NCBI GenBank assembly: GCA_016792845.1
Contig: JAEUKH010000054.1
Coordinates: forward strand, 195,708-259,707
Origin: Myxococcales bacterium
Lineage (GTDB): Bacteria > Myxococcota_A > Polyangia > Polyangiales > Ga0077539
Direction: 5' to 3'
DNA: 64,000 nucleotides
Part shown: positions 4,195 through 59,782 of the stretch, piece by piece
How positions within the stretch are numbered: position 1 is the stretch's first letter
How the letters are laid out: each line of letters begins with the position of its first letter
Made by a program: the position numbers and the translations under genes
Notes under the pieces: generated by a model
Told to the model about the DNA's origin: nothing
The model's database searches: none
The model's input: the letters and a program-made list of their open reading frames with translations, nothing else

Positions 4195-4824
4195 GTGATG
4201 GCGACGAGACGGCGAGTGTGCATGGGCTGGGCGGCTTTGTTGGCCCTTCACGCCCGCCCCGCGCGGGCCGAAGGCGCGCCCGACGGGCTCTACGGTCGCC
4301 TCTCGCGCGATCTCGTGTTGAGCGCCGAGCTCATGGGCGGCGTGCGGGGCCTCGGCGACGAAGCCCGGGCCATGGGCTCGGTCGCCTTGCGGGTGCGCAC
4401 CCTCGACATGACCGGCGTGGCCCTCGGGTACGACCGCGGGCTCTCGGGCGCAGGCCGCAGCGACACCCTTTGGGCCGCGGTCGACCTCAGGCCCGCCCTC
4501 TTGGCGCGCTGGTCGTCGAACCTTGAGACCGGCCCCCGTTGGCGCGACCTCGCGCTCGACTCGCTGGGGATCGAGCTCGGGGTGGGCTACCTCCGTCCGT
4601 TCGGGGCTGAGGGCTCGGGCTTCGCGATGGTGCTCGGGGCAGGCTTCGAGCTGCCGCTGGTGTGGTCTGAGGGCGACGCCGTGATGCTGCGCTTCTCGGC
4701 CCGCTACCAGGCCGCCGCCGCGTGGGACAACCAAGGCACCGGCCGCGACGAGTCGGGCCTCACCCTCGGCGCGGGCCTCGTGTTTCGCACCATGCGCAGG
4801 GCCGGAGCGGTGCGTGCGCGCTAG
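4195..4824 (+). CDS. Secreted hypothetical protein, beta-barrel-like
   Basis: A 209-residue protein with a signal peptide (hydrophobic WAALLALHA near 12-20, cut near ARA-EG). The body alternates small and hydrophobic residues (SAELMGGVRGLG, LGIELGVGYLRPFG, FAMVLGAGFELPL, LTLGAGLVFRT), again the texture of an outer-membrane barrel. Translation may begin at GTG 4195 or at the adjacent ATG 4198. Its last 11 bases overlap the next gene, so the two are likely co-translated. No family is recognised. Confidence 0.6.
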   Translation: MMATRRRVCMGWAALLALHARPARAEGAPDGLYGRLSRDLVLSAELMGGVRGLGDEARAMGSVALRVRTLDMTGVALGYDRGLSGAGRSDTLWAAVDLRPALLARWSSNLETGPRWRDLALDSLGIELGVGYLRPFGAEGSGFAMVLGAGFELPLVWSEGDAVMLRFSARYQAAAAWDNQGTGRDESGLTLGAGLVFRTMRRAGAVRAR

Positions 4825-5254
4825 CGTAGCCCTCGTGCTGGCGGGCGCCCTAGGGTGCGGGCGCGGCGAGCCTCGCACCCCGGAGGCCACCGTGCGGGCC
4901 TTCGTCTCTGCGGTCTCGGCCGCCCAAGACGACGCCAACGCCCGCGAGCGGGTCTACCACCTGCTGAGCGGCCGCACCCAAGAGACCCTCCAGAGCCGCG
5001 CCCAACTCGCCTCGCAGGTGTCGGGCTTCACCCTCCAACCGTGGGAGATGCTCGCTCCCGGGCGCATGCGCCTCAGGGTCGGCTACGACCCCTCGCTCAG
5101 CACCACCCGGGTCGAGGGCGACCGCGCGTGGGTCACTGTACGGGGCCCCACCGGCGGCGTGGCCGAGGTTCCCTTGCTCCGCGAAGGGGGCCGCTGGCGG
5201 GTCGAGCTCGGCCTGCCCGCGTTTCGCCCCGTCTCGACCACCGAAGCGCCGTAG
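4814..5254 (+). CDS. Small predicted lipoprotein (DUF4878/NTF2-like texture)
   Basis: A 146-residue protein starting at GTG 4814 inside the end of the upstream gene. The N-terminus MRASVALVLAGALGC is a lipoprotein signal with the Cys at 15. The mature domain begins TPEATVRAFVSAVSAAQ and ends with GRWRVEL, a layout resembling NTF2-like/DUF4878 lipoproteins in which a helix precedes a curved sheet; this resemblance is from memory and tentative. The gene ends before a tandem repeat array, and the next gene converges on it. Confidence 0.6.
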   Translation: MRASVALVLAGALGCGRGEPRTPEATVRAFVSAVSAAQDDANARERVYHLLSGRTQETLQSRAQLASQVSGFTLQPWEMLAPGRMRLRVGYDPSLSTTRVEGDRAWVTVRGPTGGVAEVPLLREGGRWRVELGLPAFRPVSTTEAP

Positions 5255-5329
5255 CGTCTCCGCGATGGCCCGCTCCGGGGGGCGGGGCGCTGTGATGGCG
5301 TCAATGCGGCGAGAGGGCCCAGCCCGCGA

Positions 5330-5544
5330 CGCAAATGGAGCGCACCTGGGGGTCAAGTGCAGTGTAGTGGCCCGCAAATGGAGCGCACCTGGGGGTCAAG
5401 TGCAGTGCAATAGGCCGCAAATGGAGCGCACCTGGGGGTCAGGTGCAGTGCAATGGGCCGCAAATGGAGCGCACCTGGGGGTCAGGTGCACTGTGGTGGG
5501 CTGCAAATGGACCGTGTTTGGGGGTCAGGTGCACCGCAACGGGC
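5330..5544. repeat. Five tandem 43-bp repeats with internal palindrome
   Basis: Units begin at 5330, 5373, 5416, 5459 and 5502, each exactly 43 bp. The first 26 bases of units 1-4 are identical; the last third drifts, and unit 5 is the most divergent. Units 3 and 4 contain the perfect hairpin GCACCTG-GGGGT-CAGGTGC; units 1 and 2 have one mismatch in it. Because 43 is not a multiple of three, any open frame across the array rotates through three readings, so I do not call it coding. The array lies between the 3' ends of two convergent genes, the usual place for REP-like elements or bidirectional terminators. Confidence 0.9.
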
Positions 5545-5568
5545 CGCGCAGGGGGGCGGTTTGCGGCG

Positions 5569-6591
5569 TCAGCGAACGGCGGGGGTGCAGGTGCCGCGCT
5601 GGCTGGGCTGGTTCGAGTCGTAGTCACCCGTCATGACGTAGATCTGGCCAGAGCTGGGGCAGGTGACGTAGGCCGAGGGGCAGGTGCCGCACTGGTCGTC
5701 GGCGTTGCCCGAGAGCACGGCGAGGGCCGAGGCGGCCGAGCAGGGCGCGGTGCCGGGGCAGACGCGCATGACGGGGTCGCCGGTGCAGACGCCGTACGAG
5801 GGCTGACAGAGCGAGCCGACCCCGGCCGAGCCGCTGCATCCGACCATGGTGGCGCGGTTGGGGAGGCAGGTGAAGGTCATGCCGAAGGTCCACCCGCAGT
5901 TGCGGTTGGGGCCTTGGGTGACGGTGCTGCCGCAGGCGGTCATGAAGCCGCCGCCTGCGCAGGTGCCGCAGTCTGAGGCGCAGCTCTCACAGGTCTCGCT
6001 GCCGTTGCAGGTGCCGTCGCCGCAGCGGGCCGCCGGGGGCACATCGACCGGAGGCGGGCACAACGCCGCGCAGTCGGCCCGGCAGCTCTCGCAGGTCTCG
6101 CTGCCGTTGCAGGTGCCGTCGCCGCAGCGGGCCGCCGGGGGCACATCGACCGGAGCCGGACACTGGGCCGCGCAGTCAGCCCTGCAGCTCTCGCAGGTCT
6201 CGCCGCCGTTGCAGGTGCCGTCGCCGCAGCGCGGCCCGACGGGGCACTGCGACTCACAATCGGCCCGACAGCTCTTGCAGGTCTCGCCCGCGTTGCAAGT
6301 GCCGTCACCGCACCGCGGCGCCGGCGGAACGTCAAACTCAGGCGACCCCACATCGTCGGCGGTCGGCCCCGTGTCGCTGCCCGGCCCCGCGTCGCTGCCG
6401 AGGCCCGTGTCGACCGCGGGCCCGTTGTCGTTGGTGGGCCGCGGCGTGTCTTCGCCGGGGATCGCGCCGCTGTCGGTGCCGCCCCCGGCGTCGCTGCCGC
6501 CCCCGCCCCCGCCGCCGCTGCTGCCCCCGCGGGCCGTGCAGGCCGAGGCGCATACCAGCGAAGCAACCACAATCCAACGTGAGAACTGCAT
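5569..6591 (-). CDS. Cys-rich repeat lipoprotein
   Basis: A 340-residue protein with a lipoprotein signal (MQFSRWIVVASLVCASAC, Cys at 18), then a long Gly/Asp/Ser-rich linker with the DTG/DAG texture seen in other lipoproteins here. Residues about 93-215 hold four copies of the pattern CGDGTCNxxETCxSCxxDC; two adjacent copies are almost identical in DNA with a 102-bp period (from 5984 and 6086). The C-terminal about 120 residues are a separate Cys-rich domain. The repeats are probably disulfide-knotted modules exported to the cell surface. No enzyme motif is visible. It converges with 4814-5254 across the repeat array. Confidence 0.75.
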   Translation of the reverse strand: MQFSRWIVVASLVCASACTARGGSSGGGGGGGSDAGGGTDSGAIPGEDTPRPTNDNGPAVDTGLGSDAGPGSDTGPTADDVGSPEFDVPPAPRCGDGTCNAGETCKSCRADCESQCPVGPRCGDGTCNGGETCESCRADCAAQCPAPVDVPPAARCGDGTCNGSETCESCRADCAALCPPPVDVPPAARCGDGTCNGSETCESCASDCGTCAGGGFMTACGSTVTQGPNRNCGWTFGMTFTCLPNRATMVGCSGSAGVGSLCQPSYGVCTGDPVMRVCPGTAPCSAASALAVLSGNADDQCGTCPSAYVTCPSSGQIYVMTGDYDSNQPSQRGTCTPAVR

Positions 6592-40588: not shown

Positions 40589-42645
40589 CGCACCATGAGC
40601 ATGCCCTGCTGGCGGTTGATGGCCCCGGCATAGCAGTTGTCGTTGCGGTAACAGGTCATCCAGCCGGTGGCCGAGAGGCCGAAGCCGGGGCCCTCGACGT
40701 CGCGAAAGTAGAAGGCCCCGTTGGTGTCGGTGAAGCCCATGTAGACGAACATCGACCCGGTGCCGCCGTCGGGGTTGTCCATGCTGGCGGGGGGCTGGAA
40801 GACGCAGCGCGAGGGGCTGAGCTCTTCGGGGGCCCCGATGCGGAGGTTGCGGGTGCGGTATCCGTCGAGAAAATCAGCCGGCACGGTGTGACGGTAGAGC
40901 CGCGCGCCCCAGGTCTTGCCCATGTCGTAGTTGCCGAAGAGCACCTCGGTGAAGCGCAGCCCCGCGGCGGCGACGTTCATCGAGTAGGGGGTGCTGTCGT
41001 TGGTGACCGAACCCTGGGCGTTGCGCCACCCGAAGTCGGCGCCGCCGTCGGTGCTCACGCAGGTCCCGAGGAGGTTGCCGCCGGGGCGTGAGCGCCCCAC
41101 CAACGTCCACCCGCCGCCCGCGGTGACCATGTCGCAATACGCGAGGAGCGCCGCGTTGCCGCCGGGGCCGTCGGGGTCGATGCGATAGAGCCCTGAGGGC
41201 GCATTGGGCTGCGCGGCCTTGATGGCCGCACACGACACGGGGTTGCAGCGCCCCGCGACGCACACGCGGTTGACGCCGCCCTCGCTCGGGCACGCCGCGC
41301 CGCACGCGCCGCAGTGCTCGACGGCGCCGCCGAGGTTGACCTCGCAGCCGTTGGCGTACATCGCGTCGCAGTTGCCGAAGCCCGTCGCGCAGGTGGGCTG
41401 ACACGCCCCCGCGGCGCACACGGCGCCCGACGCGTTGGTCTGGTTGACGCAGCGGTTGTTGCACGCGCCGCAGTTGCGCAGGTCGCTCTGGGGGTCGATG
41501 CAGAAGGCCGCCGAGCCCGATCCGCAGGCGGTCTCGCCGGTCTCGCAGCGGCATTGCCCGCCCGCGCAGGTCTGCCCCGCGCCGCACGCCGCGCCGCACG
41601 CGCCGCAGTGGGCCGCGTCGCTCTGGAGGTTCACGCAGCTCATGGCCGAGCCCGCGCCGCACGAGGTGCGGCCGCCGTCGCACGACAGGGTGCAGGCGCC
41701 GCGCGAGCAGAGCTGGTTCGACGGGCACACGTTGCCGCACGCCCCGCAGTGGTTTCGGTCGCTGTCGGGGGTGACGCACTGGCCGTTGCAGAGGGTCTGA
41801 CCCGTGGGGCACGCGCAGGCCCCCATCACGCAGCTCTGGCCACCTCGGCACACGTTGCCGCAGGCGCCGCAGTGGGCGTCATCGCTGGCGAGGGTCACAC
41901 AGCGGGCCTCGCTCCCGGCGCCGCAGAGGCTCTGCCCGGTGCCGCAGGCGCACTGCCCGGCGACGCAGGTCGCGCCGCCCCCGCAGGCGGTGTTGCAGAC
42001 ACCGCAGTGGGTGTTGCTGCTGCGCGGGTCGACGCAGGCCCCCGAACACACGATGCCGTCGTCGGGGCACACGCACTGCCCCATGGCGCACGACTGCCCC
42101 GCGGCGCAACGGTTGGCGCAGGCGCCGCAGTGCTGCGGGTCGACCTGCGAGGCGACGCAACGCCCGTCGCAGAGCTCGGTGCCGCGGGGGCAAGCGCACA
42201 CGCTGCCGTCGCAGACCTGGCCCGGCGCACAGGCCGCGCCGCAGCGGCCGCAGTGCTCGGCGTCGCGGGCGGTGTCGACGCAGCTCTCTCCCGTGGGCGT
42301 GGTGCAGAGCGCGCGCCCGGGGCCCGTGCAGCCGCCCCCGTCGGTGGCAATGTTGACATCGCCCACATCGCCGTCGGTGGCAATGTTGACATCGCCCACA
42401 TTGCCGTCGGTCGCAATGTTGACATCGTTTACATTGCCGTCGGCGGCGACATCGAGGGGGGCTCCGAGGTCTGCGGTCGCGCCGCTGTCGGGCGGGCCCG
42501 CGTCGGTCTTCGCGCCGCTGTCTTGGCCGAGGTCTGAGGCCGCGCCGCTGTCGAACTCGGTGACGGCGGGGGTGTCGCTGCTGCACGCCGTGAGCTGCGC
42601 GGCGGCGGCGAGCGAGAGGGCGCAGAGCCAGTCAGCGCGGGTCAT
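40585..42645 (-). CDS. Cys-rich lipoprotein with C-terminal fibrinogen-like domain
   Basis: A 686-residue lipoprotein (Cys at 21 in QLTAC). An Asp/Ala/Ser-rich linker contains three NVGDVNIATDG-type 11-mers. Residues about 105-465 hold roughly nine Cys-rich modules of the form HCGACGN.C..GQ.C..G.C.C, often mis-annotated in myxobacteria as unrelated enzymes. The last about 210 residues resemble a fibrinogen-like domain: SCAAIKAAQPNAPSGLYRID..., YCDMVTAGGGWTLVGR, then NCYAGA near the end. These domains usually bind glycans or acetylated ligands. It is likely surface-exposed and adhesive. Confidence 0.75.
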   Translation of the reverse strand: MTRADWLCALSLAAAAQLTACSSDTPAVTEFDSGAASDLGQDSGAKTDAGPPDSGATADLGAPLDVAADGNVNDVNIATDGNVGDVNIATDGDVGDVNIATDGGGCTGPGRALCTTPTGESCVDTARDAEHCGRCGAACAPGQVCDGSVCACPRGTELCDGRCVASQVDPQHCGACANRCAAGQSCAMGQCVCPDDGIVCSGACVDPRSSNTHCGVCNTACGGGATCVAGQCACGTGQSLCGAGSEARCVTLASDDAHCGACGNVCRGGQSCVMGACACPTGQTLCNGQCVTPDSDRNHCGACGNVCPSNQLCSRGACTLSCDGGRTSCGAGSAMSCVNLQSDAAHCGACGAACGAGQTCAGGQCRCETGETACGSGSAAFCIDPQSDLRNCGACNNRCVNQTNASGAVCAAGACQPTCATGFGNCDAMYANGCEVNLGGAVEHCGACGAACPSEGGVNRVCVAGRCNPVSCAAIKAAQPNAPSGLYRIDPDGPGGNAALLAYCDMVTAGGGWTLVGRSRPGGNLLGTCVSTDGGADFGWRNAQGSVTNDSTPYSMNVAAAGLRFTEVLFGNYDMGKTWGARLYRHTVPADFLDGYRTRNLRIGAPEELSPSRCVFQPPASMDNPDGGTGSMFVYMGFTDTNGAFYFRDVEGPGFGLSATGWMTCYRNDNCYAGAINRQQGMLMVR
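42340..42438 (-). repeat. Three 33-bp tandem repeats in lipoprotein linker
   Basis: Units start at 42340, 42373 and 42406 with an exact 33-bp period, and a diverged fourth follows at 42439. On the minus strand they encode NVNDVNIATDG, NVGDVNIATDG and DVGDVNIATDG. The in-frame period lets the linker between lipid anchor and Cys-rich modules change length without frameshift. Confidence 0.85.
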
Positions 42646-59011: not shown

Positions 59012-59782
59012 ATGAAGGGCCCGGTGGGTCTTGCTTGGTTGCTCTTGATGCTGGGCGTGGCGGGTTGCGGGTCGAGCGAGGGCGCGTCTTCGGCGGTGCG
59101 TCGCAGCAGCGATGACGCCGCGACGGCGCGACGCGAGCCGCGCGGTGAGCCGATGCCTCATGAGGCCTGTGTGACCGGTGGCGACGTGGCGACCATTGAC
59201 GCCAACGGCGACGGTCAGGTCGACATCCGCACGATGATGGAGTCGGGGCGCCCGCGGTGCCGTGAGACCGACGCCAACTTTGACGGTCGCGTTGACATCT
59301 ACCGGTGGTTCGACGCGAGCGGCAACGTGGTGCGGGTCGAAGACGACTACGACTTCGACGGCCGCGTCGACGTGGTGGCCACGTTTGAGAACAACCAGCC
59401 CGTGCGCGACATCCTCGATACGAACTTCGACGGTCGCACCGACACCTGGCGCGAGTACCGCAACAGCCGCGTGGTCGAGCTGCGCCGCGACGGCGACGGC
59501 GACGGGCGCGTCGACACCTGGGAGCGCTTCGATGACAACGGGCGCCTCGTGTACGACGCCATCGACGCCAACCGCGACGGCGAGCCCGACGCGGCCCAAC
59601 AAGCGGGCTACGGCGAAAACCGACAAGGGCAGAGCGGCAACAGCGTGAGCCCGACCGCCCCCGCTGCGCCCGCGGCGGCGCCCGCTCCGGCTTCTGCACC
59701 CGCACCCGCACCCGCACCCGCACCCGCACCCGCACCCGCACCCGCACCCGCTCCGGCGGCGCCGACCGGAGGTGCTTCGTGA
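59012..59782 (+). CDS. Lipoprotein with six Asp-rich calcium-loop repeats and Ala-Pro tail
   Basis: A 256-residue lipoprotein (MKGPVGLAWLLLMLGVAGC, Cys at 19). Six DxNxDGxxD motifs follow at about 21-23-residue spacing: DANGDGQVD, DANFDGRVD, DYDFDGRVD, DTNFDGRTD, DGDGDGRVD and DANRDGEPD, each followed by an aromatic strand. They resemble calcium-binding loops of thrombospondin type-3 or dockerin modules. The C-terminus is (Ala-Pro)n encoded by a GCACCC microsatellite. ATG 59012 is chosen for the lipobox. The stop overlaps the GTG of the next, similar lipoprotein gene. Confidence 0.72.
   Translation: MKGPVGLAWLLLMLGVAGCGSSEGASSAVRRSSDDAATARREPRGEPMPHEACVTGGDVATIDANGDGQVDIRTMMESGRPRCRETDANFDGRVDIYRWFDASGNVVRVEDDYDFDGRVDVVATFENNQPVRDILDTNFDGRTDTWREYRNSRVVELRRDGDGDGRVDTWERFDDNGRLVYDAIDANRDGEPDAAQQAGYGENRQGQSGNSVSPTAPAAPAAAPAPASAPAPAPAPAPAPAPAPAPAPAAPTGGAS
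59696..59749 (+). repeat. (GCACCC)9 hexanucleotide microsatellite
   Basis: Nine perfect GCACCC units encode (Ala-Pro)9 near the C-terminus of the lipoprotein 59012-59782. Because the unit is six bases, slippage would change tail length but keep the frame and the coupled downstream start. Confidence 0.95.

Follow-up and report, generated by a model that had tools for sequence, protein, structure and literature searches.

The window, by which we mean the whole 64-kb stretch of DNA analysed here, carries at positions 5330-5544 five head-to-tail, indel-free copies of a hairpin-bearing 43-bp unit. The array is real. It is similar to a REP cluster in where it sits and how it is built, and it probably represents a low-copy intergenic repeat of an ordinary sort, not a novelty. 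Our leading explanation, to which we assign a probability of roughly 0.45, is that of a low-copy, untagged, REP-like palindromic tandem array whose hairpins act, if at all, at transcript 3' ends.

The array and its flanking genes

TRF describes the array with a period of 43, 5.1 copies, 87% matches and a score of 303, the copies being spaced by 43, 43 and 43 bp. Adjacent units are identical at a level of 0.88, compared with a top value of 0.49 among 20 shuffles of the 64-kb window (periods of 30, 43 and 50), a comparison that rules out a chance origin. The open reading frames on either side (Table 1) converge on the array, and both were recovered by a codon-usage gene call trained on the array's own genome; the preliminary description of a five-unit, exactly 43-bp array between convergent genes is thus borne out by TRF, spacing, shuffles and gene call alike. 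A coding repeat was considered and rejected, 43 not being divisible by three and no open frame spanning the array together with 150 bp on each side. Rfam covariance models, run over positions 4500-6500 at E values up to 1, gave 0 matches.

Table 1. Coordinates of the array, its hairpins and the neighbouring genes in the window
Feature	Position	Strand	Basis or remarks
Tandem array, 43-bp units	5330-5372, 5373-5415, 5416-5458, 5459-5501, 5502-5544		Repeat and unit comparison
Unit 1 hairpin	5342-5360		Right arm CAAGTGC: one mismatched pair (+), G.U (-)
Unit 2 hairpin	5385-5403		Variant identical to unit 1 (CAAGTGC)
Unit 3 hairpin	5428-5446		Stem 7 bp, perfect; loop 5 nt
Unit 4 hairpin	5471-5489		Stem 7 bp, perfect; longer on - strand (z -5.1)
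Unit 5 hairpin, degenerate	5514-5532		Left arm GTGTTTG; four wobble pairs on + strand
Left flanking gene, 146 aa	4814-5254	+	Gene call starts at 4835; no Pfam match
Right flanking gene, 340 aa	5569-6591	-	Cysteine-rich repeats; no Pfam match; 24 bp from stop to array

The GCACCTG/CAGGTGC hairpin that had been ascribed to every unit is present in perfect form in two of the five, units 3 and 4, and is altered in units 1 and 2 (CAAGTGC) and in unit 5 (GTGTTTG).

The window contains other tandem repeats. One of 102 bp, at 5980-6244, lies within the right flanking gene, where it encodes the cysteine-rich repeats, and the homologues in relatives hold coding repeats of 75-102 bp. A hexanucleotide GCACCC repeat at 59696-59751 is perfect (9.3 copies, 100% matches), and a 33-bp repeat at 42338-42447 (3.3 copies, 90% matches) falls in a region with open frames.

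A second array in the same genome

The assembly of the genome (6,707,257 bases in 56 contigs, 90.7% complete) holds a second array at C8:118875-118995, where three units on the opposite strand, 90% identical to part of the window array, sit in the same register between convergent genes, namely a 318-aa gene and ndk. A 24-mer taken from the unit and allowed up to 3 mismatches gave seven matches in the genome, all within the two arrays (reversed control 0), a count that misses unit 5 of the window, which is too diverged; a search for the 19-bp hairpin, also with up to 3 mismatches, found three extra scattered sites with 3 mismatches each. The genome total is therefore eight units in two arrays, with no dispersed single copies beyond these three sites, and GGGGGTCA is unchanged in all eight known units. 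The preliminary description had named uniqueness of the unit to the window site as a finding that would speak against it, and the second array shows that the unit is not unique.

BLAST alignments between the two loci stop at the second array's edge or no more than about 22 bp from it, just past the stop of the 318-aa gene, so that the DNA shared by the loci is essentially the array itself. Under the REP-like explanation, an ancestral unit or array would have been copied between the two genome sites, and its length may then have been altered by slippage, as described for REP clusters.

Occurrence in other genomes and the search for a transposase

Among the genomes searched, the repeat is found only in its own, apart from single near-chance matches. 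BLAST of the array against 96 genomes (its own included) returned that genome and, in a single relative (G078), a lone 22-bp stretch, while a 25-mer, allowed up to 3 mismatches and run against 317 genomes of the class (again including its own), matched eight others once each, always with 3 mismatches (reversed control, four genomes). An exact scan of genome_contigs, by its description a database of one genome per species for 84,980 species, with a 21-base pattern of 19 fixed positions produced five single matches; BLAST covers just 21-28 bp at these sites, and TRF, run on four of the five (all but L008), found no 43-bp array. The same pattern gave 0 matches in viral contigs, as did a distant BLAST against phage and plasmid records. 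These last collections may omit the array's own genome, and the lists of relatives showed no second genome of its genus. The search of the genome and its relatives that the preliminary description had proposed thus produced a second array in the former and near-chance single matches in the latter. A literature search at the level of titles and abstract openings turned up no such repeats in myxobacteria.

Both loci were looked for in family relatives. A match to ndk occurs in 11 of 12, and in these 11 the ndk flanks lack both a 43-bp array and anything matching the 318-aa neighbour. The window locus was traced through homologues of the right flanking gene (5569-6591), which family relatives carry at up to 72% identity; the left flanking gene (4814-5254) was matched nowhere in the flanks read at the loci of 11 relatives.

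A REP-associated tyrosine transposase, which the preliminary description had suggested looking for elsewhere in the genome, did not appear, a search of the 90.7%-complete assembly for PF01797 (Y1_Tnp/RAYT) giving 0 matches. A Y1_Tnp gene is present in 11 of 12 family relatives and in 38 of the 57 genomes searched. Ten stretches around the Y1_Tnp genes of family relatives, one of which (L109) holds two such genes, contain none of three cores taken from the present genome at up to 3-4 mismatches; perfect hairpins of other sequence stand behind GTNG in three of the ten (L109, L113 and L117).

Some insertion sequences have multi-repeat ends that such direct repeats may resemble. A remnant of an end of this kind would suit several regularly spaced direct repeats that share a conserved core and occur at two unrelated sites, but we hold this origin, which the preliminary description had raised, to be extremely unlikely: neither array has a transposase seen beside it or an inverted partner, the sole other copy is itself a direct array, and searches of the genome, relatives, viral contigs, phages and plasmids yielded no additional copy.

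Conservation and folding of the unit

The unit divides into a conserved block of about 32 bp, which holds the hairpin, and a variable linker of about 11 bp. Across the eight units, 10 of 32 columns vary in the block as against 9 of 11 in the linker (P 0.005), or 5 of 32 as against 9 of 11 when unit 5 is left out (P 1.5e-4), values to be read with the split having been chosen post hoc, after the data were seen, and with the units not being independent. Conservation of the hairpin alone does not clearly exceed that of the remaining columns (variable columns 6/19 versus 13/24, P 0.22; without unit 5, 3/19 versus 11/24, P 0.05), and the 12 columns 5' of the hairpin vary as little as it does. The 19-bp stem-loop is perfect in three of the eight units, has one changed pair in four and is degenerate in one. 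No unit of the eight shows a two-sided stem change to another Watson-Crick pair, and a 7-bp stem arises by chance in 47 of 5000 shuffles of unit 3. The progressive drift from left to right that had been described is absent: units 1 to 5 differ from the eight-unit consensus at 4, 4, 2, 2 and 9 positions, respectively, unit 5 being the outlier among them.

These data bear on the main rival, and a close one, in which the array is a functionless intergenic minisatellite, amplified by slippage and copied once elsewhere, with a palindrome that is incidental or merely favours slippage. We regard this as quite possible, though not as our first choice. It accords with the presence of just eight units in one genome of those searched, with stem pairs that lack two-sided changes and with the unrelated intergenic tandem arrays, some without an evident palindrome, that lie within the surveyed 840 kb. 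It fits less well with the placement of both arrays in convergent gaps, with a linker more variable than the block and with the exact 43-bp spacing at both sites.

A bolder rival makes the array a set of sites on one helix face (43 bp is about 4.1 turns) to which a DNA-binding or architectural protein would bind. Here the constant 43-bp spacing without indels is suggestive, as are the invariance of GGGGGTCA and a conserved block that reaches 12 bp past the hairpin. Few indels would be expected at such divergence regardless, however, the sites lie at 3' ends rather than upstream of genes, the genome has no dispersed single sites and there is no protein candidate, so that we consider this reading unlikely.

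Folding differs between the strands. The whole window array has a folding z of -5.4 on the C-rich minus strand and of -1.35 on the plus strand, and for the second array the corresponding values are -5.1 (C-rich strand) and -0.9 (opposite strand); for the C-rich strand of either array, 0 of 200 shuffles fold as well. Unit by unit, z for units 1 to 5 is -1.5, -2.2, -3.2, -5.1 and +0.5 on the minus strand and 0.9, 0.8, -2.1, -1.8 and 0.0 on the plus strand. Permutations of the window array that preserve the tandem structure fold as well in 2 of 300 cases on the minus strand and in 44 of 300 on the plus strand. The strand difference in z is partly one of base composition, because the absolute energies of the two strands of the window array are similar (-87 and -92 kcal/mol). 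At each array, a transcript running on past the nearer of the two stops (24 bp from the array in the window, 22 bp at C8) would have the sequence of the well-folding strand, an agreement that with two arrays could be coincidence.

Folding of the C-rich strand beyond shuffles in both arrays, together with a block less variable than the linker, favours the REP-like explanation. Several findings speak against the REP-like explanation and its role for the hairpins at 3' ends: the hairpin does not clearly stand out in conservation and shows no two-sided pair changes, its stem is perfect in two of the five window units and a 7-bp stem also turns up in shuffles, the strand that is not C-rich shows folding at chance level (z -1.35 and -0.9; 44 of 300 permutations), and ndk has its own terminator-like site ahead of the second array. 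The last of these also weighs on a bidirectional intrinsic terminator serving both flanking genes, a function that had been proposed for the array and that its position between two 3' ends and its hairpins on both strands would suit. We find such a terminator very unlikely, as the stem has no T-run after it, positions 5100-5800 contain 0 terminator-like sites and the site at the second locus (one found, 0.3 expected) separates ndk from the array.

Genome context

A survey of 840 kb, or 12.5% of the assembly, covered the contigs holding hits and a few others, with genes called by a simple codon model made for the analysis. Convergent pairs make up 98 of 660 neighbouring gene pairs in this part and have a median gap of 17 bp; among the 225 gaps longer than 100 bp, 15 are convergent, and both 43-bp arrays lie in such gaps. 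That both arrays share one register and occupy convergent gaps, in a genome where such gaps are short, again favours the REP-like explanation, as does the occurrence of intergenic arrays built from other palindromic families of this genome.

The surveyed part contains further intergenic tandem arrays of several unrelated sequences, some palindromic and some without an evident palindrome, and, the 43-bp repeat included, the genome has no fewer than three palindromic families arranged in intergenic arrays. One of the others, the GTAG-tagged REP-type family R1, has the core GGGCAGGCCTTGTGCCTGCCC and 40 genome sites at up to 2 mismatches. In 24 distinct copies the bases preceding the core are GTAG in 12, GTAC in 4, GTGG in 4, GTTG in 3 and GACC in 1, and the family fits the published description of GTAG REPs (PMC3733652). 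Examples are found at C55:25638-26034, C8:115695-116044 and C11:195066-195494, the last just left of the window; R1 is partly in tandem with flanking DNA, in 58-bp and 72-bp units, in an assembly that has no Y1_Tnp match. A palindrome family with the core GTTGAACACYGTTCAAC gives 48 strand-wise matches, which correspond to fewer than 48 sites because a near-perfect palindrome is counted on each strand; it forms a 43-bp array between convergent genes at C2:7588-7714 and a 47-bp array with different flanks at C2:4761-4893. The palindrome TGTTGAACACYGTTCAAC, concentrated on few contigs (C2:4725-7712, many sites on C34 between 76 and 190 kb, C31 and others) and arranged in part as 43-bp and 47-bp arrays whose flanks differ, may represent an operator or a further hairpin repeat.

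R1 forms 15 clusters, and each of the two 43-bp arrays has one of them no more than 5.6 kb away (C11:195066-201251 and C8:115695-118995). A rough estimate for this joint nearness is 6e-4, but it was noticed afterwards and is not counted as evidence; it possibly reflects a repeat hot spot and possibly chance. Beyond the window on the same contig (L047), a CRISPR array with a 36-nt repeat at C11:272362-275729 is preceded by matches to Cas_GSU0053, Cas3, a Cas4-Cas1 fusion and Cas2, a gene set that we take to point to type I-U/I-G.

A possible role at transcript 3' ends

If the REP-like explanation holds, the 3'-end location would be one where the array is tolerated or useful. Transcripts running on from the gene with the nearer stop would carry the C-rich strand, which could fold into hairpins, and these might shield the 3' end of the mRNA and reduce transcription running on into the facing gene. 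A further step, which is speculative and which we think improbable, would make the array an insulator specific to this lineage, in which phased hairpins or protein sites at exact 43-bp spacing separate convergent units and which spreads without a RAYT; the setting for it is a genome whose convergent units nearly abut (median gap of 17 bp in the surveyed part). Were the arrays to guard convergent gene ends, they would offer a simple system for studying the separation of facing transcription units. As it stands the finding is modest: one more low-copy case among palindromic intergenic repeats, in a genome with several unrelated palindromic families, one of them GTAG-tagged, and an assembly without a detectable Y1 transposase.

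Comparison with known repeat systems

With a CRISPR array the 43-bp array shares a conserved block, a variable linker and a constant spacing, but its linkers are about 11 bp long and mutually related, and the CRISPR array of this genome has another repeat. An intrinsic terminator was set aside for its stem without a following T-run and the 0 terminator-like sites in 5100-5800, and an insertion-sequence end finds no inverted partner in 4800-6000 and no further genome copy, the transposase search having been for Y1_Tnp only. Intergenic minisatellites and VNTR loci consist of short tandem units that differ little and lie in a stretch of non-coding DNA. The array is like them in its short, little-diverged tandem units and its non-coding position, and unlike them in that its unit recurs in two unrelated convergent gaps and contains a palindrome.

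BIMEs of enterobacteria, in which REPs alternate in orientation (PMC2817692), resemble the array in having several palindromic units at regular spacing in an intergenic gap; every unit of each array here has a single orientation, without alternation, and BIME was rejected on this ground.

The closest comparison is with REPs, which Di Nocera et al. 2013 (PMC3733652) place mainly between convergent and unidirectional genes, in clusters repeated in tandem with flanking DNA. The preliminary description had called the array REP/BIME-like, and this stands insofar as the array is palindromic, intergenic and located at 3' ends in a genome with a GTAG-tagged REP-type family; strict membership does not. 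Instead of a GTAG/CGTC tag, the stem is preceded by TGGAGC in six of the seven copies matched and by TGGGGC in the seventh, with AGTG, ACTG or ACGG on its 3' side; the copy number of eight units in two arrays is not high; the units are purely head-to-tail, with no single copies; and the 90.7%-complete assembly yields 0 PF01797 matches for the RAYT (Y1_Tnp) gene that goes with GTAG REPs. As tag, copy number and transposase were each looked for and not found, we do not file the array as a REP. What it has in common with the GTAG/CGTC REPs (PMC3733652) is a stem-loop with a 7-bp stem (at 19 bp in all, taken to fit the palindromic stem-loop of 20-40 bp of REPs), an intergenic position, a convergent setting at both of its two sites and repetition in tandem together with its flanks.
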